Part shown: positions 1,099 through 28,257 of the stretch, piece after piece | Position numbering within the stretch: the first letter of the stretch is position 1 | How the letters are laid out: every line of letters begins with the position of its first letter | Origin: a virus | Strand: one strand, 5' to 3' | DNA length: 64,000 nucleotides | IMG/VR virus record: IMGVR_UViG_3300030060_002738 | Span: 34,041 to 98,040 of that record | Made by a program: the position numbers and the translations under genes | Notes under the pieces: generated by a model | Seen by the model: only the letters and a program-made list of their open reading frames with translations | Databases searched by the model: none | Told to the model about the DNA's origin: nothing

Positions 1099-1542
1099 TC
1101 ACCTATTATTATTGTAGGAATGTAAACGCAGAGAAAGACATAGACTGCGAAATCTATACTACTAGAGTGTGAAGCATACGATACCGAACAATTCCAGCAT
1201 GTTTCGGATATCGCTTCTGTCTTTTTTATTTCATAGTAAAACTCTGCTCTTTGTGAGTGTGATTAGTAAGGTGAAAACTTTGTACCGCAACTGGTTTTCT
1301 CTTCATTAAGTTCTTATTGCCTCGTCAGGACTTACACAATTGAACGCCTTACTCTTGCGAGTGTGATATCGGATAAAAGCATGGGGGAGATGAGTCCCAT
1401 CACTGCTATTGATTTGCTTTTTTTACCGCAGTAAACCGATGTTTGAATAGAAAGGGGAAACGAGTAAGTGCTGTGCCTATACCAACGGGTAGGGAACAGC
1501 AACGTGGTAGAACACATTGCCAATATTAATTACTAGACCGGA
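1099..1542. other. Non-coding stretch with a repeated octamer and a hairpin
   Basis: About 440 bp with no convincing gene. GAGTGTGA occurs three times on the plus strand (1165-1172, 1255-1262, 1359-1366). The last two copies share flanks of the form CTCTT-N-GAGTGTGAT. A ten-pair hairpin with one bulge lies at 1179-1213 (arms CGATACCGAA and TTCGGATATCG), followed on the plus strand by a T-rich run, like an intrinsic terminator. A 63-codon leftward frame (1332-1523) has unconvincing composition. The stretch may be leader or regulatory DNA for the 1098 operon or hold an unannotated RNA. Confidence 0.4.
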
Positions 1543-1770
1543 TTATCCTGCTTTATTTTTTATAGCGCAAAGCCACTCAATTGTTCCCCGGATGGAATTT
1601 GACACACCGCTTCCCAATGGGTACAGTGAACCATCCTTATCTGAGCGAACCCGTTTTCCACAACTACTAATCTCATCGCTAGATTTGACGTTGGTTGCTT
1701 CTATCATAACCCTAGTATCTTTCTCGTTTTTTACTTCGGAAACCCCAAGTTTCTCCATGCTCGCCGTCAT
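1543..1770 (-). CDS. Possible hypothetical protein (75 aa)
   Basis: A leftward frame in the same orientation as its neighbours, 46 bp downstream of the 1817-2149 gene. Composition is plausible (charged N-terminal half, then LYPLGSGV and GTIEWLCAIKNKAG) but no family is recognised and no clear ribosome binding site precedes ATG 1770. The overlapping 123-codon plus-strand frame at 1517-1888 is rejected because it runs into the well-supported 1817-2149 gene. Confidence 0.35.
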   Translation of the reverse strand: MTASMEKLGVSEVKNEKDTRVMIEATNVKSSDEISSCGKRVRSDKDGSLYPLGSGVSNSIRGTIEWLCAIKNKAG

Positions 1771-1816
1771 CCCGCTAAAGATTCATGGCTCTACGAGCAT
1801 TGGTGGAGTGTTATGT

Positions 1817-2149
1817 TTACTCTTGACTCCTGTAAACAAGGAGCAGAGTCAGATATCCTATCAAGTCCTTGATGATATCATCATCTGATTCAAGTGAGTC
1901 ATTACCTTGAACAAGTCTATTCAACTTGTCATCGATTCTGACTTTGATTTGTTCTTCTTGGTCTGCATGAGAAAAGAACCTTGTTGGATTCAATACTGAA
2001 TCTCCATACTGCCTGTTCTTCTGAAGTAGCATGTCCCTCATCTCTTCACACATTGATGAAATCTGCAACTGTGATTCAGTCATCTCATCAACTAATTCTT
2101 CGTTATTGCTTGGTGTTTTTACACCCCATTTGTTCTTTTCTTCTGTCAT
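1817..2149 (-). CDS. DUF1599 / nucleotide-modification-associated domain 1 protein
   Basis: 110 residues. The core from about residue 38 (MLLQKNRQYGDSVLNPTRFF, then EQIKVRIDDKLNRL, then DDIIKDLIGYLTLL) follows the pattern of the DUF1599 family, with a K-N-x-x-YG-x-S block, an RIDDKL-x-RL helix and a final DLIGYL helix. The family is associated in viruses with modified-nucleotide metabolism and looks like an all-alpha, MazG-like nucleotide binder. No DNA-modifying enzyme is visible in the window, so which nucleotide it acts on is open. It is the first leftward gene beside the divergent AT-rich region. Confidence 0.75.
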   Translation of the reverse strand: MTEEKNKWGVKTPSNNEELVDEMTESQLQISSMCEEMRDMLLQKNRQYGDSVLNPTRFFSHADQEEQIKVRIDDKLNRLVQGNDSLESDDDIIKDLIGYLTLLLVYRSQE

Positions 2150-2764: not shown

Positions 2765-2807
2765 AACCATATGGTTAGACAACTTTGCTCGCTCTAACCT
2801 CATAAAG
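2765..2807 (+). promoter_or_regulatory. Compound operator copy 1 plus TATA-like box for the 2830 gene
   Basis: AACCATATGGTT (2765-2776) is a perfect palindrome. ACTTTG follows at 2782-2787, the same six-base spacing seen in two other copies. The left ACAAAGT arm is not recognisable in this copy. A TATA-like CTCATAAAG sits at 2800-2807, about 26 bp before ATG 2830, which allows a leaderless start. An operator upstream of the TATA box suits an activator, but this is inference from position. Confidence 0.5.
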
Positions 2808-2829
2808 CGATGATTTTTTGTAAGGCTAC

Positions 2830-2952
2830 ATGGAATATGATATGGAATGTGAAGGTTGTAAAGAGATAGTGACAATAACAGGTGCTTACCTCGGAGTTAT
2901 CGAAGACGCATGGTGCGAGTGCTGTGGTTGGGAAGGTGAGAATCTTGAGTGA
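2830..2952 (+). CDS. Small four-cysteine zinc-ribbon protein (40 aa)
   Basis: First gene of the rightward block. The 40-residue product has CEGC at residues 7-10 and CECC at 29-32, with a short beta-like stretch between (IVTITGAYLGVI): a minimal two-knuckle zinc ribbon. ATG 2830 lies about 26 bp from a TATA-like box, so the message may be leaderless. Its tail overlaps the next gene. A longer frame reading across it from 2882 is not a real N-terminus, because it begins inside this gene. Function unknown. Confidence 0.6.
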   Translation: MEYDMECEGCKEIVTITGAYLGVIEDAWCECCGWEGENLE

Positions 2953-3202
2953 TGTTTACGAATATACAATAGATGAGTGGTCAGTAGATACGAGGAAGTG
3001 GTTAGTCACTTCACCAAAGAAACTGACTTACGAACAAGTTGTAGGCTTGGCCTGTGACTTACCTGAACAGTCAATCGAGGTTCTTCTTGGTGATTCTGAG
3101 ATGCCCGGTCTTGAGGGAGTTGTTGTAAACTTCCTTGGAACAGAATATGGTGATGACTCACAACATGAGGTACTTGGAGATTTCAAGGGGGAAGAAGAAT
3201 GA
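2936..3202 (+). CDS. Hypothetical small acidic protein
   Basis: About 88 residues from GTG 2936 (MRILSDVYEYTIDEW). The frame is open further up to 2882, but the extra residues lie over the zinc-ribbon gene and look like a shadow, so I prefer GTG 2936. GGGAAG just upstream is a weak ribosome binding site. The product is acidic, with a KLTYEQVVGLACDLP helix and an acidic tail. No family recognised. Its stop overlaps the next start (ATGA). Confidence 0.6.
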   Translation: MRILSDVYEYTIDEWSVDTRKWLVTSPKKLTYEQVVGLACDLPEQSIEVLLGDSEMPGLEGVVVNFLGTEYGDDSQHEVLGDFKGEEE

Positions 3203-3426
3203 TTCTTACAAACACAATGGATGAAGGTCAACAGGAGGATACAGATAAACTCAAGCAACGTGCCGTTCATCCAAGCGTTGCTGACTTTATTCAATCTCTT
3301 GCTGAATGGGGCTTCAACCATGTAGACCATACGATGCTATGGGAAGCCATGTGTGCAGTTATTGAAGCGGGTGAGCGTGGCGACCTTGACGATATCATAG
3401 ATTATTATGAAGGTGATGAAGAATGA
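3199..3426 (+). CDS. Hypothetical small protein (75 aa)
   Basis: ATG 3199 overlaps the preceding stop in ATGA and its own stop overlaps the next start, so it is translationally coupled on both sides. The product is helical and acidic, with a segment around VADFIQSLAEWGFNHVDHTM and an acidic DDIIDYYEGDEE end. No recognised domain. Confidence 0.65.
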   Translation: MILTNTMDEGQQEDTDKLKQRAVHPSVADFIQSLAEWGFNHVDHTMLWEAMCAVIEAGERGDLDDIIDYYEGDEE

Positions 3427-3536
3427 GATGTAAAGTATGTCAAGAAGAACACCACGACACTTGCCCTTTGGTAGAGGGTTGTTCATGTTGTGAATGGACA
3501 ATGAAACAAGCACAAGGAGGAGAACTAGATGTATGA
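3423..3536 (+). CDS. Cysteine-rich microprotein (37 aa)
   Basis: ATG 3423 overlaps the previous stop. The 37-residue product contains MRCKVC, then CPLVEGCSCC, so six Cys plus several His (EEHHD) could form a zinc knuckle. Its end overlaps the next gene, whose start is supported by homology. Likely a small zinc protein of the early rightward operon; function unknown. Confidence 0.55.
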   Translation: MRCKVCQEEHHDTCPLVEGCSCCEWTMKQAQGGELDV

Positions 3537-3705
3537 GATAATTAGATTTAGATTTGATGGAAATCATAGAGTAATCAAGAGAGGGTTAACTCTTGAAGAA
3601 GCACAAGAACACTGCCTAGACCCCGAATCAAGTGGGAAAACCTGTTCGGATTTGAGTAAGCGTGGTAAGTGGTTTGATAAATATACGAAGGAGGAAGGAG
3701 AATGA
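3529..3705 (+). CDS. Conserved small tailed-virus protein (MYEIIRF...VIKRGLTLEEAQEHC)
   Basis: 58 residues. MYEIIRF, VIKRGLTLEEAQEHC, a DPESSGKTC segment and WFDKYTKE near the end match a very widespread small phage protein that I know by this exact pattern (MY-IIRF, RG-TLEEAQ-HC-DPE-SS, then WFDGY). Its role is not established. ATG 3529 overlaps the preceding stop, and the stop overlaps the next ATG (ATGA). Confidence 0.8.
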   Translation: MYEIIRFRFDGNHRVIKRGLTLEEAQEHCLDPESSGKTCSDLSKRGKWFDKYTKEEGE

Positions 3706-3911
3706 GAGACATAGAGAATCACATGGTAGCCCTACCACAACCGGAGTTGGAGTACGAACCTGAGTGCGACCATTCAGACATTCAACATCTAAATGTTGAG
3801 TGCTTTGGTGATGGAACATATATTGACTTCAGAATCAGATGTTGTGACTGTGGAGCCGAGGGTTATCGACTCTACACTATCAAAGAATGGTCAGATGACT
3901 TTGACAACTGA
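3702..3911 (+). CDS. Hypothetical protein with a Cys cluster (69 aa)
   Basis: Last gene of the 2830-3911 overlapping cluster; ATG overlaps the previous stop. It carries an acidic N-terminal half and then CCDCGAEGYRLY, with ECDHSDIQH further up. The Cys/His arrangement suggests a single zinc site. A UUCG-type hairpin follows the stop directly. No family recognised. Confidence 0.65.
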   Translation: MRDIENHMVALPQPELEYEPECDHSDIQHLNVECFGDGTYIDFRIRCCDCGAEGYRLYTIKEWSDDFDN

Positions 3912-3915
3912 AAGC

Positions 3916-3929
3916 CACCCTTCGGGGTG
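3916..3929 (+). terminator. Hairpin with TTCG tetraloop after the first small-gene cluster
   Basis: CACCC-TTCG-GGGTG is a perfect five-pair stem with a very stable UUCG loop. It starts five bases after the stop at 3911 and is followed by a CGTTTTAC stretch. It lies just ahead of the next operator and promoter, as expected for a transcript end. Confidence 0.5.
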
Positions 3930-3943
3930 CGCCGTTTTACTCT

Positions 3944-4000
3944 ACAAAGTTCTTACCATATGGTAGGGAAACTTTGTGGCGAAGCATCTACCCTATATAG
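3944..4000 (+). promoter_or_regulatory. Compound operator copy 2 plus TATA box (CCTATATAG)
   Basis: ACAAAGT (3944-3950), ACCATATGGT (3955-3964) and ACTTTGT (3971-3977) form a nested inverted repeat. CCCTATATAG at 3991-4000 is the archaeal-type TATA box, about 36 bp from the palindrome centre. The same ordered set recurs at 4611-4673. Confidence 0.65.
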
Positions 4001-4062
4001 TGATGGAAACGTGTATGGTTGTAGTCGTAGGGATGCGACACACTATAATGGAGATGAAATGA

Positions 4063-4536
4063 ATGGCGATGGAAAATTGGAATGAATTTAGCGAAACCGT
4101 AGTCGCATACTGCGACTCACCGAACGCCCAAGTGGATGAGTTCACTGCTGGAATGGCGAAGAACTTCATCGTAAAGGGAACTGAAGAGCCGAGGTCACAA
4201 GTAAGGCTATCGAGGACAATCAAGGATATCCTCTCTGCGTTTACTGACTCCCCTCTGAATGGTCGTGCATCCGGTAGCAGAAAGACCGGAGTACAGAGAC
4301 TATCCGAGAAAGCACAGGCACTTTGGGCAGACACTGTAAGCATGGAGACCGTTGACGGTATTACTACCATCACTCTCGATGCTGAAGCATATGAGTATCA
4401 CACAACCTTCGCAGGAAGGAAAGACGAAAACGGCGACCCCCTAACATCATGGGGTAGCAACGAAAATATGGTCGCTCACACCTTAATGAGCAAACTTGAG
4501 AGCGGATTCGTATCCGCCCACAAGGAGGACAACTGA
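4063..4536 (+). CDS. Hypothetical protein (157 aa), operator-controlled
   Basis: Single gene behind operator copy 2. The 157-residue product starts MAMENWNEFSETVVAY, is mixed alpha/beta in appearance and matches no family I know. The TATA box at 3991-4000 predicts transcription from about 4020, leaving a leader of about 40 bases with GGAG at 4050-4053 as the ribosome site. A short frame (ATG 4015, or in phase from 4003) encodes 15 residues (MVVVVGMRHTIMEMK) and stops at 4060-4062, directly abutting this start. It could be a leader peptide or chance. A strong hairpin follows the gene. Confidence 0.7.
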   Translation: MAMENWNEFSETVVAYCDSPNAQVDEFTAGMAKNFIVKGTEEPRSQVRLSRTIKDILSAFTDSPLNGRASGSRKTGVQRLSEKAQALWADTVSMETVDGITTITLDAEAYEYHTTFAGRKDENGDPLTSWGSNENMVAHTLMSKLESGFVSAHKEDN

Positions 4537-4562
4537 TTAGGTAGTCCTTGCATCCCTGCGAC

Positions 4563-4599
4563 TGCACTCTTAGGCCGATTTATCGGTCTTTGAGGTGCA
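4563..4599 (+). terminator. Long two-part hairpin downstream of the 4063 gene
   Basis: Outer arms TGCACTC and GAGGTGCA pair with one bulge. Inside them GGCCGA-TTTA-TCGGTC forms a six-pair stem at 4573-4588. It sits between the stop at 4536 and the next operator at 4611, as expected for a transcript end or a processing signal. Confidence 0.5.
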
Positions 4600-4610
4600 T
4601 CGTTCCGAAT

Positions 4611-4673
4611 ACAAAGTAATTACCACCATATGGTAGGGAAACTTTGTGCAATAAAATGGCGTACCCTATATAG
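4611..4673 (+). promoter_or_regulatory. Compound operator copy 3 plus TATA box, leaderless promoter
   Basis: ACAAAGT (4611-4617), ACCATATGGT (4625-4634) and ACTTTGT (4641-4647) are symmetric around 4629. CCCTATATAG lies at 4664-4673 and ATG 4694 is about 25 bp from its centre, the normal archaeal TATA-to-start distance for a leaderless message. Confidence 0.7.
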
Positions 4674-4693
4674 TGATGGGCAAAGTGAGGGGT

Positions 4694-4870
4694 ATGGAAC
4701 CACAATTAATGCCCACTAAGGTATATCAATACGAGATTGAACTAGGTCATGCTAAATCAGGTTCTGACCATGTTCTAATCATCAAGAGTCTCAAGGTTCG
4801 TGGTGATGACTTATCACTAGTCATGGCTGAACTCAAGGCAGGATTACAAAACATGCAGGAGGTGCTTTGA
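4694..4870 (+). CDS. Hypothetical small protein (58 aa), probably leaderless
   Basis: The frame is open from 4673, but ATG 4673 lies directly on the TATA box, so ATG 4694 (MEPQLMPTKVYQYEIEL) is chosen. The product is a short beta-rich protein ending in a helix (DDLSLVMAELKAGL). Its stop overlaps the next gene (TGATG). No family recognised. Confidence 0.6.
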   Translation: MEPQLMPTKVYQYEIELGHAKSGSDHVLIIKSLKVRGDDLSLVMAELKAGLQNMQEVL

Positions 4871-5127
4871 TGGGAGCAAAACATGAAGTTGAATATGGTG
4901 ATTTCGTTTATTCTGATGGTACAATAGAAAGAAGCACAAAAGTCTACTTCGATACTGATAAAGAATGGAGAGACTTCATCGAGGGATTGAACGGCGAGTA
5001 TCCTGAAGGATTCTGTGGAGGTACATCAACAACATTCACTAAATGTTGGGTTGTAATCGAAAGTAAGCGTGTGCCTGTCTCAGAGATGTTCGCTTATCAG
5101 CGAAGCCAAGAACAAGAAGAAGAGTAA
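4870..5127 (+). CDS. Hypothetical protein (85 aa)
   Basis: ATG 4870 (MGAKHEVEYGDF) overlaps the stop of the preceding gene as TGATG; a TTG one codon upstream is a less likely start. The product looks beta-rich with an acidic Glu-rich C-terminus. The two genes form a small operon under operator copy 3. No family recognised. Confidence 0.65.
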   Translation: MGAKHEVEYGDFVYSDGTIERSTKVYFDTDKEWRDFIEGLNGEYPEGFCGGTSTTFTKCWVVIESKRVPVSEMFAYQRSQEQEEE

Positions 5128-5140
5128 TACATAACAGGCA

Positions 5141-5254
5141 TTCACAAGGCTACTTGGGATGTAAGCCCTGACCACTCCACCCTTAAGGGGAAAGCGAGGT
5201 TTCACCAGCGAAGGTGATTCATGAGAATAGTTCGCAGTCTCAGCCTTGTTTGAA
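5141..5254 (+). ncRNA. Candidate structured RNA
   Basis: In the gap after the 5127 stop, TTCA-CAAGGCT (5141-5151) pairs with AGCCTTG-TT-TGAA (5242-5254) as an 11-pair closing stem with a two-base bulge. Inside it are CCC-TTAA-GGG (5180-5189), TCACC-AGCGAA-GGTGA (5202-5217), a weaker GGG/CCC hairpin (5156-5168) and a possible GCGA/TCGC pairing (5194-5197 with 5232-5235). This multibranched arrangement could be a small viral RNA. No known RNA family is recognised, and pairing was judged by eye only. Confidence 0.35.
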
Positions 5255-5321
5255 CAATGGGGATGATGGACAAACAGTTCGTTCGACATGCAAATATGTG
5301 CAGCAGCGTAATTAGTCTTAG

Positions 5322-5417
5322 ATGAAGCCGGAATACACTCTAAGCAATGAATCGGGTATGAATCCTTATCCATGCAACAACTGTCACTGTCCTGACTCCT
5401 CTCTGTTGATGAGGTAG
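5322..5417 (+). CDS. Possible cysteine-containing microprotein (31 aa)
   Basis: A 31-codon frame from ATG 5322 to TAG 5417 encodes a peptide with PYPCNNCHCPDSS, a CxxCxC cluster like those in neighbouring microproteins. It lacks a clear ribosome binding site and lies in otherwise non-coding DNA just upstream of operator copy 4, so support is weak. Confidence 0.25.
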   Translation: MKPEYTLSNESGMNPYPCNNCHCPDSSLLMR

Positions 5418-5431
5418 CAGTCGTTTCACTC

Positions 5432-5483
5432 ACAAAGTCCTACTACCATATGGTAACTAACTTTGTATGTTCACCTCATAGTG
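5432..5483 (+). promoter_or_regulatory. Compound operator copy 4 plus TATA-like box
   Basis: ACAAAGT (5432-5438), TACCATATGGTA (5444-5455) and ACTTTGT (5460-5466) are symmetric about 5449. The downstream CCTCATAGTG (about 5474-5483) resembles the CCTATATAGTG of copies 2 and 3 and lies about 25 bp from ATG 5504, again fitting a leaderless start. Confidence 0.6.
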
Positions 5484-5503
5484 TGATGGTTTTTCATAAG
5501 GTC

Positions 5504-5761
5504 ATGCGAGTACAGCACATGATAACCAAGAGCGGAAACCAAGCAATGAATCAATTTGAGGTATTTGATGAAAAGGGAAAGCACTTTCTTTCATATGGGG
5601 TTGAGGTAGCAACTATTAACGGCGATGAAGTCACCCTTAACGCTCCTTATTGGGACATGTATTCAACGACAACTAATTATTATCTTCTTCAGTTCCTGAA
5701 TGAACCCTCAATCAAGGACATAAGGCAAAAGGTCAACGATGGCCTTTATCAAACTCGATAG
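5504..5761 (+). CDS. Hypothetical protein (85 aa), operator-controlled
   Basis: The frame is open from 5450, but that start lies inside the operator. ATG 5504 (MRVQHMITKSGNQ) is about 25 bp downstream of the TATA-like box, so I choose it; ATG 5486 is an alternative. The product is beta-rich in appearance (FEVFDEKGKHFLSYGVEV) with a C-terminal helix. A strong terminator-like hairpin follows at 5844. No family recognised. Confidence 0.6.
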   Translation: MRVQHMITKSGNQAMNQFEVFDEKGKHFLSYGVEVATINGDEVTLNAPYWDMYSTTTNYYLLQFLNEPSIKDIRQKVNDGLYQTR

Positions 5762-5843
5762 GCTCAATAATCGAGTATAATGGGCAGGTTAAGAACGGCA
5801 GATTTGAAAGAAGCCTCTCATTATTGAGTTAATTGAATGAGGG

Positions 5844-5871
5844 GGCAGCCCCTACACCTTCAGGGGCTGTC
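5844..5871 (+). terminator. Strong GC-rich hairpin
   Basis: GGCAGCCCCT (5844-5853) pairs with AGGGGCTGTC (5862-5871): ten pairs with one G-T, an eight-base loop, then TTCTCT. It closes the transcript from operator copy 4 ahead of copy 5. Confidence 0.6.
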
Positions 5872-5898
5872 TTCTCTACCCTCAAGGTGTTTGTTTAT

Positions 5899-5961
5899 AC
5901 AAAGTTCTACCACCATATGGTAATACAACAAACATGGATTGTAAAATATGAGACTATATAA
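5899..5961 (+). promoter_or_regulatory. Compound operator copy 5 (degenerate right arm) plus TATA box
   Basis: ACAAAGT (5899-5905) and ACCATATGGT (5912-5921) match the other copies. The right arm is degenerate (ACAACAAAC). CTATATAA at 5954-5961 is a good TATA box. Transcription would start near 5983, upstream of the 6089 frame and the GNAT-like gene at 6311. From 5762 to 6088 I see no convincing gene, only the hairpin, this promoter and an AT-rich leader with a possible 18-codon hydrophobic frame at 6011. Confidence 0.55.
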
Positions 5962-6088
5962 ACTTCCGAACGTTTAATATTTTTACACCCTTAACAGAAA
6001 CTCCAACCATATGCCAAAATTTTTTTCCTGTTGTTTTTTAATCTCGTTAGTTAAAATAAACTACTAGGGTGTTATCCGCTCATACGTT

Positions 6089-6784: not shown

Positions 6785-6849
6785 TGTATTACACGACTTC
6801 TTTTGATTTTGAGTTGCTATACAATCAGGGAGAGGTGTATCGAAAATGA
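6784..6849 (+). CDS. Coupled microprotein (21 aa)
   Basis: ATG 6784 overlaps the GNAT-like gene stop (TGATG) and its TGA overlaps the next ATG (ATGA at 6846), so the 21-residue peptide MYYTTSFDFELLYNQGEVYR-K exactly fills the gap. GGGAGAGGTG near its end is the ribosome site of the next gene, so it may act mainly as a coupling peptide. Support is positional only. Confidence 0.4.
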   Translation: MYYTTSFDFELLYNQGEVYRK

Positions 6850-9893: not shown

Positions 9894-11647
9894 GTTGGCA
9901 AGAGGTTCTCAAAGAAAAGAAGGTTGAAGCAAAACCTGTTGCTGAACCAATAAAGAAACAGGAAGTCAAGGACTTTCCAATAAAACCCGATTCAGCCACA
10001 TTCAAGATTTGGCAAGCAGCGTCTAAGGATGATACATGGGCGGATTACACAAAAGACGGTTTGACTTCTTCCCAAGTCCAATCTGTTCAGAAGGCAAAGA
10101 GACTTCTTCAAGGGGAAGTTGTGAACATCGGAGGAACTGACTTTCAGTTAAAGGACAGAGATGCGGTAGGTAATGTCAATGCGATTATTTCTAGATTGGA
10201 TAACATAACACCAAAGAAAACTAGTCTTACTGCGAAGAGAAGAAAGGTTAATGCCGATGTAAAACACTTCATTCAGAATGAGAAGTATGATGAACTTCTC
10301 AATCTACTAGAAGGTAGAGGACAAGACAAGTATGCAGGGAAGTTATCGAATGTTGCTCAAAGGGCAAGAAAAATAATTCAAGAGTCTAAGATACTGAAGA
10401 ACAAGATACTCAGTGGTGCTGAAGACAAGCATCCTGAGTTGGTTAGGATAAAGGAAATTCTAAAGATAGGAGGAGTTCCTCAGATTGAGATAAATCAGAC
10501 AATTCCCGAACCCACTGTTGTTTCTTACATCAAGAAGATAATGGCACTTAACTTCAGTAAGAACTCAAGGAACAAGACGGACTTCATCTATGAGGATGCA
10601 AACGACCAACTTGCTAGGAATATATTCGGACACACCAAGATTCTTCCTTCATTGGAGTTCATCTTGGATAACGAGGGACTGAATGAGAGCAACATACCAA
10701 CAGCCTACAAGAAGAGAAACGTGATTGAGAACATCGCTTTGCAGAAGTTGATTGCTGGTGTTCTATCAGAGGAGAACAAGGATGCTCAGAAATCCATCAA
10801 CAGTATCTACGACAAGTACAAGGAAGACATCGAGGCATTCTACGGGAGAGAGGGGGAGACTCCTGAAGAGGCAGAGAAAAGGCAGAAACTTCGTAATGAG
10901 AGCAGGGGGAAGTGGGATGCCATATCAAGGAAGGGCAACAAAGCAAGAAGGGACTTCTTCGCAGAGATTAGGGAAGATGATGACACCAATGCTTACTTTG
11001 AGGACTTGATGGCCGAAGTGACAGAGGACAAGACAAACAAGATGACATCGGAGATTAGAGATGAACTCGTAGAGGCGTTGCAGAACAGTGACCCCGATGA
11101 CTTCACAGCCTCTCTCAAAAAACTAGGAATCCAAGACACGTTTGATGACATGGAAGAGATTGATGAAAAGTTAGACGTTGACAAGACAATAGATGCTTTA
11201 GTGCAAATGAAGACATTGCCTAATGGTCTAGTAAGACCTGTTGCGGGAACAGAGGAGACTCTCAGATACTTTGACGAGCAGGAGATTGATGCTTGGTCTA
11301 TCTTAGAGGATGTGATAGATGATGACATCACAACTTTCGATGCAGGACAGACTGGAACACTAGACAAGATTGTTATCATACAGAAGAGACTTGGGGAACT
11401 GTATGATGTTGAGCCTGAGATAGATGAGGAGGATGTCGAGAACGGAGACATGACCAGCGAGGAGTTCAAGCAGTTGATTCTAGATACTTACAGCCCGATT
11501 CGTAAAGCGTTCCTTGAGGGCGTTGCAAAGAGGATGAAGGACATTAGTGCAGAAGGGAAGGTTCTAGGAAAGAAGATAAAGAGTTCACAAGGCGGTTTCG
11601 TTGAACCTGCCATTTGGATTCAGATACAATTAGGGGTGAGCGAGTGA
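9890..11647 (+). CDS. Large W-LK-tagged charged protein (585 aa)
   Basis: The frame extends to 9851, but ATG 9890 overlaps the previous stop (ATGA) and gives MSWQEVLKEKK, so it is the real start. After a Pro/Lys linker the protein is long, highly charged and mostly helical (for example KAKRLLQGEVVNI; KYAGKLSNVAQRARKI). No enzyme motif is visible. By size, tag and place before terminase I infer an abundant internal head or ejection protein. Confidence 0.6.
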   Translation: MSWQEVLKEKKVEAKPVAEPIKKQEVKDFPIKPDSATFKIWQAASKDDTWADYTKDGLTSSQVQSVQKAKRLLQGEVVNIGGTDFQLKDRDAVGNVNAIISRLDNITPKKTSLTAKRRKVNADVKHFIQNEKYDELLNLLEGRGQDKYAGKLSNVAQRARKIIQESKILKNKILSGAEDKHPELVRIKEILKIGGVPQIEINQTIPEPTVVSYIKKIMALNFSKNSRNKTDFIYEDANDQLARNIFGHTKILPSLEFILDNEGLNESNIPTAYKKRNVIENIALQKLIAGVLSEENKDAQKSINSIYDKYKEDIEAFYGREGETPEEAEKRQKLRNESRGKWDAISRKGNKARRDFFAEIREDDDTNAYFEDLMAEVTEDKTNKMTSEIRDELVEALQNSDPDDFTASLKKLGIQDTFDDMEEIDEKLDVDKTIDALVQMKTLPNGLVRPVAGTEETLRYFDEQEIDAWSILEDVIDDDITTFDAGQTGTLDKIVIIQKRLGELYDVEPEIDEEDVENGDMTSEEFKQLILDTYSPIRKAFLEGVAKRMKDISAEGKVLGKKIKSSQGGFVEPAIWIQIQLGVSE

Positions 11648-14505
11648 AACCAAGCGTAGATTTGAACAGGGCATTTGAGATTTTTATCAAAGAGGGGAAT
11701 GCTGGCCTGAAGGAATACATGAAGCGGTTGAACGACCAATACTTAGATGAAGAGGGCAATCCTACGACTCCTGACTCCAAAGTTGCAGAGCAACTGAATC
11801 CTGATGAGATGACATATGAAGCACTCATAGCAGAACTGAAGAGAAGGGGAATAGACAAGTATGTTCCAAAGAAAAAGAAAGTCAAGAGAAAGGACTACAA
11901 CCCTGATACTGGAAAATTGCAAGAGAAAGAAGTCGAGATAGAAGAGCCAGTACCTGCTAAGTTCAACAAGGAGGAGGCGATTGCTAGGCTCAAACAGGAG
12001 ATAGGAGAAGCCCCTGCACCAAAGGAGAGAGTGACTGAGAAACTGAAACTCATAGATATGAAAGAGTTCCCTGATGATGTTCTCTATACCTACTTGAGAA
12101 AGAACTTCAACTCAGAATCAGAGAACAAGACTGCAATCATGCAGGGAGAGACCTTCCAAGGAAGGCTTCTAGTCAACCCTGATGGCACTCCTAGAAGTGG
12201 AGCGGAAATCAGAAACAAGGTAGAAGACGAGTTGAGAGACAAGTTCCCAATCATCTTCAGACAAGACAGACCAAAGCAGTACATAGACGAACTAGTTCGA
12301 TTGGGATTGAGAAGTTTCACTAGCAGAGTCGCTGAAGATGCTTCTGCTCTAACTAGGATGTCGTCTACTCAAATCATAGATGAGGCCAAGGAAGACAGCG
12401 ACGTAAATGATATTCTAGGCATGTTCACTGAGAAGGGAAGGAAACTGAACTACAAGGTGTTTGAGTTATACTTCAGGCAGTTTGCCCCGAAGAGGGAAAC
12501 GAGAAGGAACATCAAATGGAACAACTACGTCAACAGGACATACAGGTTAGGCTTCACTAGAGAGAAAGTCGATGAGGCCATAGACATCTTGGAGAACAAG
12601 ATACCTGACTACTTCGTTCCGATTCTGTTTCCTTTCAAGGCAATGCTCGTAAGTCTGAAGGATAAGAAGGAAACAGGACAGGGACAATATAGAGTGTCAA
12701 GATTGAGAGCATCTCAGATTATCGGAAGAGTGGATACTAAACAGATAAAGAAGAGAGCGGAGATATACGGGTATTGGAAGGAGAAGTCAAAGGAGTTTGA
12801 GGAGTTCAAGACTGCTCACAATAATTTCATGGATGCTATGGACAAGTTGGATGGCGAGTATTCACCTGAGTTGGAGTCCACTTTCAAGGAATTCAAGGCT
12901 ATCAAGATTGACAATCTGAATTACATCCAACGACATGACAGGGTTGACTTTGAGGATATAGACAACATAGAGCAGAAGTCAGTCGCACTTCTTCGCAGTT
13001 TCCTGAGTGATATCAGACAGATGCCACCTAACAGGGTAATCTTCACTGATGAGGAAACAGGCAAGGATGATGTCAGTAGATACGGAGAGTTGGAAACCGA
13101 CAACGAACTAATCGATGAGGAGAGTGAGTTGAGGGCTAAGATTAATTCCCTATCGAACAAGAAGGTAGACCCTCTTTACGCATACGCATTGAAGGAGGGA
13201 TTCACAAACGAACTGTCTGCTGGTGCAGTTGCCTCCAAGCAACTTGGTGAAATAAAGAGAAGATTGAAGACTGGTCTAGTATTGATAGAGATGGAGAATC
13301 TCATACCTAGAATAGACTCCTTCATCAAAAACTTAGAGAAGATGGAATCAGGAAACCTGAAGGATTTGTTTCTTCCAGTGTCAGATGCTATTGAAGGATA
13401 TGAGGGTAGCAAGAAGATAAATGATGATGTTGCAGAGTACCTGAGTCTGTTTGCTGAGTTTATTGAATATGGTGATGACTTCGATAGACGTTCAAAGGAT
13501 GCATCATCAGTCGTTGGACAAGGAGAGAGAAAGGTAGGTGGCAAGACCGTCAGGGAAGCAGCCTCCCCTAGAGTAGCATTAGGTAGAAGAGGAAAAAGAA
13601 AGACGCATCTAACTGAATTCAAGGAGTTGGATATCGCTACTAAGTTCAACAGCCTACTAGAGCAGATAGTCAACTTCTTCATCGAGCCGAGTAGAAGCAA
13701 GTACAAACCAACTGATGAAGCACTCCCCTACATCAAGAAGGTTGGTAGTCGTAAGATTGAGAACATCGTAAGAGAACCCAAGGCTGGTGACAGTCCATTC
13801 ATACATCTCCTTAGAATGGAGAGCGATGATTGGAGACTATCGATGTCCGATTTGAAAAACATATCCAAGTTCATGCAACTTCTAACTTCGCTCAATGTCG
13901 GGTCAAAGCAGAAGGAACTAGTGAGCGAGACATTTGACTTGGCTGATATGATAGACGATTTGTTTGAGGGAGAAATGACAGAGATGGTCAATGTGGAATT
14001 TGGGAATTTCTTGAGTGGTCTCTTTGAGGATGCTAATCTAGGTGATGTGAAGTTCGGACTAGGAGGCAAGAAGAAAGATACGAAGGAGTGGGCAGAGGAC
14101 TACAAGGCATCTAAACTGTATCCGTTTGAGTCCATCTTCAATCACTTGGTTATGAACAAGGAGAAGTATAAGGAAATGCAGGGAGCAACCCAACTCATCG
14201 ATAGGATTCTAACAGCAGAGAATGACCTGAACATAACCAAGTCTGCTGAACAGCGACTCGTATTGAAGGCACATGATGAGATTAGAAAGATGATGGGCAA
14301 ACCAACTTACTATGGTCTTTCCAAAGTCGAAGATTACAATGCAGTATCAGAGGCGATTAACATAATGAATAGCAAATACAATGTTGATATTACTGCAATG
14401 GATGTAGAGAATATTGTCAAGGAGTTTGATTCGATGACTAGCATCGGAACAAAGTACGGCATTCCACAAGAGGGGGTCTATTTCCTCAAAGCGAACTTCA
14501 GGTGA
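11644..14505 (+). CDS. Very large charged helical protein (953 aa)
   Basis: GTG 11644 overlaps the previous stop (GTGA), which I prefer to TTG 11614. The product begins MKPSVDLNRAFEIFIKEG, which could hold a degenerate tag (FEIFIK). It runs through long acidic-basic helices with no recognised domain; RVSRLRASQIIGR and KRGKRKTHLTEF are basic patches. At 953 residues it is one of the largest head-block genes. Internal virion protein, DNA-ejection protein or structural tether are all possible; the sequence does not decide. Confidence 0.55.
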   Translation: MKPSVDLNRAFEIFIKEGNAGLKEYMKRLNDQYLDEEGNPTTPDSKVAEQLNPDEMTYEALIAELKRRGIDKYVPKKKKVKRKDYNPDTGKLQEKEVEIEEPVPAKFNKEEAIARLKQEIGEAPAPKERVTEKLKLIDMKEFPDDVLYTYLRKNFNSESENKTAIMQGETFQGRLLVNPDGTPRSGAEIRNKVEDELRDKFPIIFRQDRPKQYIDELVRLGLRSFTSRVAEDASALTRMSSTQIIDEAKEDSDVNDILGMFTEKGRKLNYKVFELYFRQFAPKRETRRNIKWNNYVNRTYRLGFTREKVDEAIDILENKIPDYFVPILFPFKAMLVSLKDKKETGQGQYRVSRLRASQIIGRVDTKQIKKRAEIYGYWKEKSKEFEEFKTAHNNFMDAMDKLDGEYSPELESTFKEFKAIKIDNLNYIQRHDRVDFEDIDNIEQKSVALLRSFLSDIRQMPPNRVIFTDEETGKDDVSRYGELETDNELIDEESELRAKINSLSNKKVDPLYAYALKEGFTNELSAGAVASKQLGEIKRRLKTGLVLIEMENLIPRIDSFIKNLEKMESGNLKDLFLPVSDAIEGYEGSKKINDDVAEYLSLFAEFIEYGDDFDRRSKDASSVVGQGERKVGGKTVREAASPRVALGRRGKRKTHLTEFKELDIATKFNSLLEQIVNFFIEPSRSKYKPTDEALPYIKKVGSRKIENIVREPKAGDSPFIHLLRMESDDWRLSMSDLKNISKFMQLLTSLNVGSKQKELVSETFDLADMIDDLFEGEMTEMVNVEFGNFLSGLFEDANLGDVKFGLGGKKKDTKEWAEDYKASKLYPFESIFNHLVMNKEKYKEMQGATQLIDRILTAENDLNITKSAEQRLVLKAHDEIRKMMGKPTYYGLSKVEDYNAVSEAINIMNSKYNVDITAMDVENIVKEFDSMTSIGTKYGIPQEGVYFLKANFR

Positions 14506-20612: not shown

Positions 20613-21020
20613 ATGCCAATTCGTAAAGTCAAAGGAGGATACAAGTGGGGCAAGAAGGGCAAGGTCTATCGAAGTCGTAAAGGTGCTGAGAGACAAGCAG
20701 CCGCCGCTTATGCTTCAGGCTACAAGAAGTCAATGAATTGGTTTGATACTCTAAAGAGAGACAAGAAAGACATGAGAGTTGGTACTGTTTATCCTTCAGA
20801 TAGAGAAGGTAAGAAAATTATGATGCTAACCCATGAAGGAAAGAAGATTCATGCTGGTGCTAAAGGCTACGGTAATTACAAGAGAAAGGGTAAGAATCGT
20901 GGAGGTGGAACACACAAAGACCCTGCTAGGAGAAAGAATTTCAGAGCAAGGCATAACTGTGACCAATGTAAAGGTAGAATTACTACCCCTAAGTGCCTAG
21001 CATGTAAAAAACTGTGGTGA
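20613..21020 (+). CDS. Two-module basic protein with an internal W-LK motif
   Basis: ATG 20613 (MPIRKVKGGYKWGKKGKVY) matches a short module common in phage proteins (GGYKWG-GK-Y-x-R-AE-QAAAAYASGY); GTG 20604 is an alternative start. Immediately after YASGYKKS comes MNWFDTLKRD, the tag, then a second basic module ending in DPARRKNFRARHNCD, also a known phage motif, and CDQCKG-CLACKKLW, a zinc pair. The tag thus sits exactly between two modules. This could mean a processed precursor or an internal start at ATG about 20734; no strong ribosome site is visible there. Confidence 0.65.
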   Translation: MPIRKVKGGYKWGKKGKVYRSRKGAERQAAAAYASGYKKSMNWFDTLKRDKKDMRVGTVYPSDREGKKIMMLTHEGKKIHAGAKGYGNYKRKGKNRGGGTHKDPARRKNFRARHNCDQCKGRITTPKCLACKKLW

Positions 21021-27015: not shown

Positions 27016-28257
27016 GTGTTTGCTGAACAGGAGGTATTGATTAGACAAGAGAGTGCTAGTGATTTTACTATTCTCAAGTCAGATAATCTAGTAATTGGAG
27101 GATATGCTTCAATAGAAATAGTAGATAAACAGAATGACTTGATTACACTAGAAGCACTTGAAAAAGCCGTTAAAGATTTCATGAGTGAGAAGTCTTACAG
27201 AAACGTCATGTCAAATCATTCCAACGTTCAGGTAGGAGAGGTGATAGAGCAATACCGTGATTCCAATGGTACATTACACAAGACAGGTGTAGATGGTGTC
27301 GGATTCTATGTGGTTATCAAAATGAGAGATGACATAGAAAAGGCAAAAGAGATTAACAGAGGAATCAGAAAAGGCTCACTACGCTCTTTCAGTATTGGTG
27401 GACAAGCGATATCAAAGAGAGAGAGAAAATCGGAGGAATACGGGGAATACAACGAGATTGACAACTTAGAGTTGCATGAAGTTACTATATGTGAGAAAGG
27501 AATAAACCCTGAAGCGAAATTCGACATTTTAAAAGCGAAAGGAGGTAAAGAAATGACGGAAAAATTGACGAAAGCATTGGAAGAACTCAACGGTCTGCTA
27601 ACACAGGTTCGTGAAGTTACTGGTGAAACAGTCGCAAAAGAAGATGAATTGGAGACAATGGAAATGAAAGAAGATGAAAAAATGATGACCGAAAAGGAAG
27701 AAGTTGAGAGTATGGACATGGATGAAGATAAAATGTCTATGAAGGAAGACGAAGTTGAGAGCATGGATATGGAAGAGAAGGCTCTTGATGAAGACTCGAC
27801 TAGAGACTATGAGGCTGGCGAGAACGTTGTAGTAAACGGAAAGCCAGTGGCAGCACCTGCTGCACTATCAGTCTCTAAGGGTCTAGAAGGTACTGACTTC
27901 ACGACTCTCGACCTAAGTGCCGAGAATGTAGAGAAGGCTTACGAGGCTTACAAAGCAGAGCAACTAGAGGCAATGGCTTACGATAACCTATCGAAGCAAT
28001 TTGCTGACAGATTTGCTGCTGAACTTGAAGTCAAGAAATCAGCCGCAGAGAGAGCAGAATACGATGCTTCAACAGAAGTAGCCGCTCTCAAAGAGGAGTT
28101 TGCAGAACTACGCAAGTCTCTTACTGCAAAGGATGATGAGATAAGGAAAGCAACAGAAGTCGCTTTCTCTCTACCTGAAGGATTCCCAACCACTGCTGAC
28201 GCAATGGCTGAGATGTCATGGGGAGACATACACAACCTCGCAAGGAAGGTGAACTAA
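27016..28257 (+). CDS. Prohead maturation protease fused to acidic scaffold
   Basis: 413 residues from GTG 27016. Residues about 20-165 form a herpesvirus/HK97-type serine protease (S78/U35-like): strand region LVIGGYASIEIVDKQND, likely catalytic His68 in VMSNHSN, and the Ser region SLRSFSIGG (Ser124 or 126). Residues 169-175 (FDILKAK) mark the junction, followed by a very acidic, Met-rich segment with a repeated EVESMDM (230-252) and a helical coiled-coil scaffold. The C-terminus MSWGDIHNLARK (400-411) repeats the tag pattern seen across the head block. It cleaves scaffold and other proteins in the prohead before DNA packaging. Confidence 0.8.
   Translation: MFAEQEVLIRQESASDFTILKSDNLVIGGYASIEIVDKQNDLITLEALEKAVKDFMSEKSYRNVMSNHSNVQVGEVIEQYRDSNGTLHKTGVDGVGFYVVIKMRDDIEKAKEINRGIRKGSLRSFSIGGQAISKRERKSEEYGEYNEIDNLELHEVTICEKGINPEAKFDILKAKGGKEMTEKLTKALEELNGLLTQVREVTGETVAKEDELETMEMKEDEKMMTEKEEVESMDMDEDKMSMKEDEVESMDMEEKALDEDSTRDYEAGENVVVNGKPVAAPAALSVSKGLEGTDFTTLDLSAENVEKAYEAYKAEQLEAMAYDNLSKQFADRFAAELEVKKSAAERAEYDASTEVAALKEEFAELRKSLTAKDDEIRKATEVAFSLPEGFPTTADAMAEMSWGDIHNLARKVN
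27553..28257 (+). CDS. Nested in-frame scaffold protein (predicted internal start)
   Basis: Inside the protease-scaffold gene, AAAGGAGGTAAAGAA directly precedes ATG 27553. GGAGGT is a full Shine-Dalgarno match at the ideal six-base spacing, and the frame is the same. The product would be the 234-residue scaffold alone (MTEKLTKALEELNG onward), made in excess of the protease fusion. This is the arrangement of lambda C and Nu3. Seen: the site and frame. Inferred: its use. Confidence 0.6.
   Translation: MTEKLTKALEELNGLLTQVREVTGETVAKEDELETMEMKEDEKMMTEKEEVESMDMDEDKMSMKEDEVESMDMEEKALDEDSTRDYEAGENVVVNGKPVAAPAALSVSKGLEGTDFTTLDLSAENVEKAYEAYKAEQLEAMAYDNLSKQFADRFAAELEVKKSAAERAEYDASTEVAALKEEFAELRKSLTAKDDEIRKATEVAFSLPEGFPTTADAMAEMSWGDIHNLARKVN

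Follow-up and report, generated by a model that had tools for sequence, protein, structure and literature searches.

The stretch analysed here (the window) covers 64,000 nucleotides, positions 34,041-98,040 of the 98,040-bp IMG/VR record IMGVR_UViG_3300030060_002738, and carries an array of small genes separated by copies of the palindrome CCATATGG, hereafter the core. Five cores are found in the whole record, all between window positions 2767 and 5920. The 10-mer ACCATATGGT was mapped to 2766-2775, 3955-3964, 4625-4634, 5445-5454 and 5912-5921 and nowhere else in the record, where it is the sole palindromic 10-mer with at least four copies (5 vs 0.11 expected). With one mismatch allowed, it has 7 matches in the window against 1.65 expected, a number reached in 0 of 100 shuffles. 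The full compound form, ACAAAGT-N-ACCATATGGT-N-ACTTTGT, is present at 3944-3977, 4611-4647 and 5432-5466. An initial annotation of this DNA had listed these five sites and three full forms, and all were located where it placed them. It had seen the site nowhere else in the window; the exact core is indeed absent from the rest of the window and from the remaining 34 kb of the record, but one more core, a degenerate sixth (CCATATGCC, then AAAATTTTTTT; 6007-6026), had been missed. This copy matches the array-end signature of relatives: T6 or longer lies near 15/43 last cores of arrays vs 6/392 other cores, and CTTTG directly abuts 17/43 last cores vs 2/392 others. Core 6 of the window has a T7 tract, the array-end trait, and the fifth and sixth cores mark the end of the window array.

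The left-hand genes of the record run leftward and the right-hand genes rightward. Structural genes are encoded (portal, SU10-like capsid protein, and tail tube), as well as genes for replication and metabolism (two ATP-dependent ligases, PolB in two pieces, a clamp loader, and ribonucleotide reductase), a pyrimidine-dimer glycosylase, and a TFB-like protein with a TFIIB zinc ribbon. The closest named portals are those of the Druskaviridae HVTV-1 and HCTV-5, at ~28% identity. Magroviruses are 90-110 kb tailed viruses of Poseidoniales (PMC12999244). The magrovirus traits present in the record are PolB, an ATP-dependent ligase, oppositely directed replication and morphogenesis modules, and a length of 90-110 kb (compared with PMC12999244). 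The record thus fits a magrovirus-like archaeal tailed virus, with Poseidoniales as the putative host. A virus-encoded TFB-like protein was found in 22 of 29 array-bearing records; the one in L005 (10263-11180, record 27266-28180) has 305 amino acids and a TFIIB-type zinc ribbon. In L004, DNA polymerase B is split over two separate open reading frames (10902-13850).

No scattered copies turned up when the full record was scanned, and relatives carry the site too. Related loci were collected using the core as search key: a strict motif was found in 42 IMG/VR stretches and a relaxed one in at least 119. Exact ACCATATGGT occurs 5-13 times per record in the 29 related IMG/VR records that were scanned whole, while the reversed pattern used as a control matched once, in a single record of the 29. 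Among the places listed (a dozen records), the cores of a record all lie within a single 2-7 kb segment. Across 84,980 prokaryotic genomes, a scan returned a single match, in a Clostridium stretch, which makes use of the site as a host regulon unlikely, and this possibility was rejected. HVTV-1 is among the named viruses closest in portal protein, and no clustered palindrome was detected in its first 50 kb. No relevant report turned up among the papers listed for CCATATGG or, for such an element, in the literature that could be searched.

The core is linked to a promoter. In the window, TATA-like boxes start at 2799, 3992, 4665, 5475 and 5953, ~26-37 bp from the core centres. The initial annotation had given each site a TATA box 30-41 bp downstream and a gene after it; the boxes are there, at distances close to those given, but the fifth site (5913), with its TATA-like box, has no clear gene. 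When arrays are oriented by their genes, the TATA start lies ~29 bp from the core centre, and start codons cluster ~52-60 bp or 85-118 bp from it. For the 52-60 bp group, the TATA start is 28 nt before the ATG (interquartile range 28-29, n=36), the spacing expected for archaeal leaderless promoters. A TATA-like box on the opposite side is about half as frequent (43 vs 78 of 234), and 145 array genes are co-directional vs 22 opposite. The placement of a TATA box at a fixed distance downstream of the core is therefore well supported. Of the early-gene regulon first proposed, what stands is that the sites mark mostly co-directional small genes with an archaeal TATA promoter at a fixed downstream place in many related viruses; early timing is suggested by the position and type of the genes only.

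The half-sites flanking the core have the form GGT-N-(R)CTTTG(Y)-N'-ACC, with the CTTTG arm mostly 3-10 bases from the core (statistics from 569 non-redundant sites). The two spacer lengths within a half-site correlate (r = 0.58), ACC shifting along with CTTTG, and the spacers are complementary: the gapped pairing score is 4.15 vs 2.85 (standard deviation 0.044) with 3' arms permuted among half-sites of the same gap. The bases adjoining GGT/ACC form Watson-Crick pairs in 71/53/48% of cases vs 42/29/34% after permutation, and all four types of pair occur. The signal persists inside one virus: in 72 of 73 loci (t=22), pairing is better between native arms than between arms exchanged within the locus. 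Close to CTTTG the stem is weaker, and there only the flanking pair (A..T or G..C) clearly exceeds the permuted value. The left and right halves of the same site are no more similar than expected by chance, so that one long palindrome was rejected. Since the spacers co-vary within each half and the halves are mutually unrelated, each site comprises two independent predicted stem-loops, back to back around a shared palindrome. A nested operator for a dimer or dimer-of-dimers regulator, previously read from the symmetry, is not supported: the arms are loop regions of these two stem-loops, with co-variation inside the halves only. Tolerated mismatches favour the TTT-loop strand in each half (G.T over A.C, G.A over T.C), that is, the sense strand for the right stem-loop and the antisense strand for the left. 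The test is moderate, not strong; from this bias we read the predicted stem-loops as DNA-level structures.

Some arrays depart from this layout. In L011 (228-4400), L021 (206-4550) and L046 (3200-7600), many core-to-core units have no gene and carry long hairpins, each with a stem of ~20 bp and a small hairpin at the apex, followed by an 11-nt bulge resembling AATCTAAATGT or AGCCTAAGCGG. These hairpins point outward from the cores in both directions, and 29 of the 59 half-units found fall in these three loci. No Rfam match to them was found in L011 or L046, and the known RNA families were represented by just a tRNA, in L011. L008 (94-2528) packs fourteen CCATATGG cores into 2.5 kb. Almost all of these lack CTTTG arms, and no sizeable open reading frames separate them; cores can persist without promoter stem-loops.

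Array gene clusters are ordered differently between viruses, for example |C1|C9|C0|C3.. in L009 and |C1|C0|C9|C3.. in L032. Breakpoints were obtained from an all-vs-all Blast of the array loci and counted pairwise. Where homology ends without continuation, 57% of the ends lie at most 40 bp from a core centre vs 16% for random positions. For the 265 alignment ends at most 60 bp from a core shared in register, the last base of CCATATGG (+4) accounts for 70 and +5 for 18; none fall from -47 to +2. A second peak at +13 to +15 corresponds to the shared CTTTG. From these positions it follows that homology always takes in the cassette's own inner stem-loop, most often stopping at the far edge of the core. 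We were able to identify 24 pairwise insertion/deletion junctions at cores, and 10 locus pairs with both relative orientations, i.e., inverted cassettes. The median identity between partner cores spans 10 bases, and the similarity of their flanks (0.415) does not exceed that of random core pairs from the same array (0.416). In the window itself, L019 is homologous (88%) up to core 4 and again from core 5 onward, so that cassette 4, with gene C15, is absent from that relative. As assembly word lengths exceed 10 bp, the shared stretch is too short to make chimeric assembly a likely source of these junctions. Units with terminal inverted repeats, as in transposons, were also rejected, the variable parts of the cassette ends scoring 0.512 vs 0.507 when shuffled.

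Together, the array, the predicted stem-loops, the promoter geometry and the crossover positions, as read from the sequence, lead us to propose that the CCATATGG element joins exchangeable promoter-gene cassettes in a small-gene array of marine archaeal tailed viruses, a reading that the initial annotation had not considered and to which we give a probability of roughly three in four. The array would sit at the divergent centre of the viral genome, and a cassette would span one core to the next, neighbours sharing one palindromic core. Each cassette would begin with ATGGT and a CTTTG-bearing stem-loop, followed by a TATA box driving a leaderless or short-leader gene or small operon, and its end would be a mirror-image stem-loop that closes at ACCAT. 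Cassettes would be joined at the core by recombination, whether among viruses or inside a single one, and because the core is palindromic, cassettes could be lost, gained or inverted, each keeping its own promoter and end structures. The stem-loops would most likely be folded DNA strands with promoter and insulation or termination roles, and might help to expose the core for exchange.

Several observations weigh against this proposal. Some breakpoints, a minority, are located within genes or at start codons, and the junctions are not all independent, some coming from the same loci. About a quarter of half-sites have no CTTTG, a few viruses have cores entirely without promoter stem-loops, and the predicted stems have few pairs and some mismatches. 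That the core is exactly conserved partly reflects how the loci were selected, as it was the search key. Finally, tyrosine recombinase (PF00589) was detected in 0 of 21 records, with 14 of 14 controls positive, and neither Y1 transposase nor serine recombinase was found in 21 records, again with positive controls.

The mapped features of the array are listed in Table 1.

Table 1. Features mapped in the core-bounded gene array (window coordinates)
Feature	Position	Strand	Remarks
Core 1 CCATATGG	2767-2774		Array left end; left half degenerate; same boundary in L019
Right stem-loop of core 1, GGTTAG-ACAACTTTGCTCGCT-CTAACC	2773-2799	+	Compensatory stems across relatives (predicted)
TATA-like box CTCATAAAG, cassette 1	2799-2807	+	Position rule
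Cassette 1 first gene, 40 aa (amino acids), cysteine-rich	2830-2952	+	Start 60 bp from core centre; 80-88% nucleotide matches, four related loci
Cassette 1 remainder, small open reading frames ending at 3202, 3426, 3705 (cluster C4) and 3911	2951-3911	+	
Left stem-loop of core 2	3926-3957	-	CAAAG on + strand; family evidence (predicted)
Core 2	3956-3963		Motif match
Right stem-loop of core 2, GGTAG...CTACC with CTTTG between	3962-3992	+	
TATA box CCTATATAG, cassette 2	3992-4000	+	
Cassette 2 gene, cluster C0, 157 aa	4063-4536	+	Commonest array gene; no family or fold match
Left stem-loop of core 3	4594-4627	-	
Core 3	4626-4633		Motif match
Right stem-loop of core 3	4632-4665	+	
TATA box, cassette 3	4665-4673	+	ATG at 4694, 29 bp downstream
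Cassette 3 genes C1 (4694-4870) and C11 (4870-5127)	4694-5127	+	
Left stem-loop of core 4	5413-5447	-	
Core 4	5446-5453		88% homology to L019 ends here
Right stem-loop of core 4	5452-5475	+	
TATA-like box CTCATAGTG, cassette 4	5475-5483	+	ATG at 5504, 29 bp downstream
Cassette 4 gene C15	5504-5761	+	Cassette between cores 4 and 5 absent in L019
Left stem-loop of core 5	5886-5914	-	
Core 5	5913-5920		Right half degenerate; no gene before core 6
Degenerate core 6 and T-tract (CCATATGCCAAAATTTTTTT)	6007-6026	+	Array end, terminator-like

C0 is often present as two paralogues per array. It was considered as a DNA-binding regulator and rejected: the AlphaFold model has a pLDDT (predicted local distance difference test) of 79, the best fold match reaches only E=0.57, there is no Pfam or PHROG match, and none was found in phage records. 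C5, beside the array, was likewise rejected as a helix-turn-helix regulator, since the domain common to its members is a different one and a helix-turn-helix-like extension is present in only part of them (judged by eye).

Two further observations were made outside the array. Ten open reading frames of the rightward module (starts at 6846, 7130, 7450, 9043, 9890, 19542, 21026, 22539, 22865 and 23368) open with a shared tag, M-[STND]-W-x-x-[IVTA]-[LIM]-K (e.g., MSWEDVLKK and MTWQEILKA), exactly at residue 2, and the tag is found inside 20613-21020 too. Such an N-terminal tag recalls an encapsidation or targeting signal, for example the capsid-targeting sequence of T4. In addition, window positions 1100-1850 comprise ~700 bp without a clear gene between leftward open reading frames, with repeated GAGTGTGA-like words and short stretches that are 84-94% conserved in several relatives.

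How cassettes would be exchanged at the core can be explained in two ways, which we rate as about equally likely, neither reaching even odds. A dedicated recombinase or nuclease, viral or host, may cut the palindromic core, with the folded arms as a possible guide; parallels would be integron integrase at attC and Cre at a loxP site with a symmetric spacer. Crossovers that map to the core, where partners have no further homology in the flanks, are consistent with such an enzyme, and so are the occurrence of both deletions and inversions and the retention of cores where promoter arms are lost. The missing recombinase domains argue against it, and the variable arm spacing is ill-suited to a Cre- or Xer-like enzyme. 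Alternatively, short-homology annealing or polymerase template switching at the core, with stem-loops stalling replication and selection for intact cassettes, might suffice with no dedicated enzyme. Partner cores do share ~10 bp, and an XPF-like nuclease is encoded in 18 of 21 records and an AAA_24 ATPase in 16 of 21; nothing ties either to the cores. Such exchange leaves unexplained both the upkeep of one palindrome across such diverse viruses and the total lack of breakpoints in the adjacent inner stem-loop. More speculatively, these viruses may hold an undescribed system in which an enzyme unrelated to known recombinases recognises the CCATATGG core, and perhaps also the arms, folded on opposite strands, and reshuffles self-contained promoter-gene cassettes in the manner of an integron or a natural symmetric-lox system. 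If so, it would provide a fast-evolving arsenal of small host-takeover genes.

The compound operator of an early-gene regulon, in which a viral or host dimeric activator would bind CCATATGG and its arms just upstream of the TATA box, now seems improbable. The fixed place upstream of TATA, the strictly palindromic core and the TFB-like factor that most of these viruses encode would all suit it. A transcription-factor operator is expected to have fixed spacing and half-sites that vary independently; here, the arm gaps are variable, with no fixed helical phase, and the spacers vary as base pairs in each half, the halves being unrelated. Moreover, some viruses keep armless, promoterless cores at unit boundaries, and breakpoints land at the core. 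A core-binding protein may nevertheless coexist with a role as cassette joint. Still less probable is an RNA-level element, with paired hairpins acting at mRNA 3' ends as terminators or stabilisers and the shared sequence being incidental: its position between stop codons and the next promoters and the T-tract at the array end would agree with this, but almost no T-tract follows the inner sites, and since the mismatch bias is on the antisense strand in the left stem-loop and the sense strand in the right, sense RNA cannot easily explain both.

Read as a cassette junction, the element places the accessory gene array of magroviruses with base precision and offers a simple sequence signature to spot such genes in any metagenome. 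Magroviruses have so far been known only via metagenomics (PMC12999244), and infect Poseidoniales, which a statement in PMC10160649 counts among the most abundant surface-ocean microbes. The question posed is what cuts or joins DNA at a 10-bp palindrome in viruses without a recognisable recombinase.

Likenesses to several known systems can be drawn. The array of mostly co-directional small genes with compensatory stem-loops at cassette borders resembles an integron with its attC sites. Integrons also hold small, mostly co-directional genes bounded by stem-loops conserved in structure and variable in sequence, which are exchanged as units. They differ in that no integrase was found here, each cassette has its own promoter and can be inverted, and the crossover lies in the palindrome between two stem-loops, not in an R-box. 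The loxPsym site of synthetic yeast (SCRaMbLE) has a symmetric 8-bp core that permits deletion and inversion, as the symmetric core does here; however, the array is natural, its arm spacing is variable, and no Cre-like recombinase was found.

The early promoters of the N4 virion RNA polymerase are DNA hairpins with a 3-base loop and conserved and variable stem bases, the variable ones being free if pairing is kept (PMC4496689). The stem covariation of the array element is similar, with a weak inner stem next to CTTTG. N4 hairpins, however, occupy -17 to -5 of the template strand and serve a T7-like enzyme, whereas the array stem-loop is upstream of TATA. For a single-subunit RNA polymerase, no Pfam domain was found in two giant open reading frames, nor among the first 25 families listed.

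Finally, a passage of PMC4503421 (citing Arbiol 2010 and Comeau 2014) describes the promoter early stem-loops (PeSLs) of T4-like phages, the closest known system, as composite promoter and stem-loop repeats between small genes that mediate gene shuffling among related phages. The array element also combines a promoter motif and a stem-loop in an intergenic repeat, and borders regions where related viruses differ in gene content. It differs in its archaeal TATA geometry, in place of a phage early sigma-70 promoter. In addition, each joint has two opposed stem-loops and a shared palindromic core, which narrows the crossover down to 8-10 bp, and some cassettes are inverted. The element would thus work like a PeSL without being one by descent, a separation that we base on promoter type, with no sequence relation to PeSLs expected. 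This suggests that archaeal viruses came independently to a promoter/stem-loop strategy of gene shuffling resembling the one in T4-like phages.

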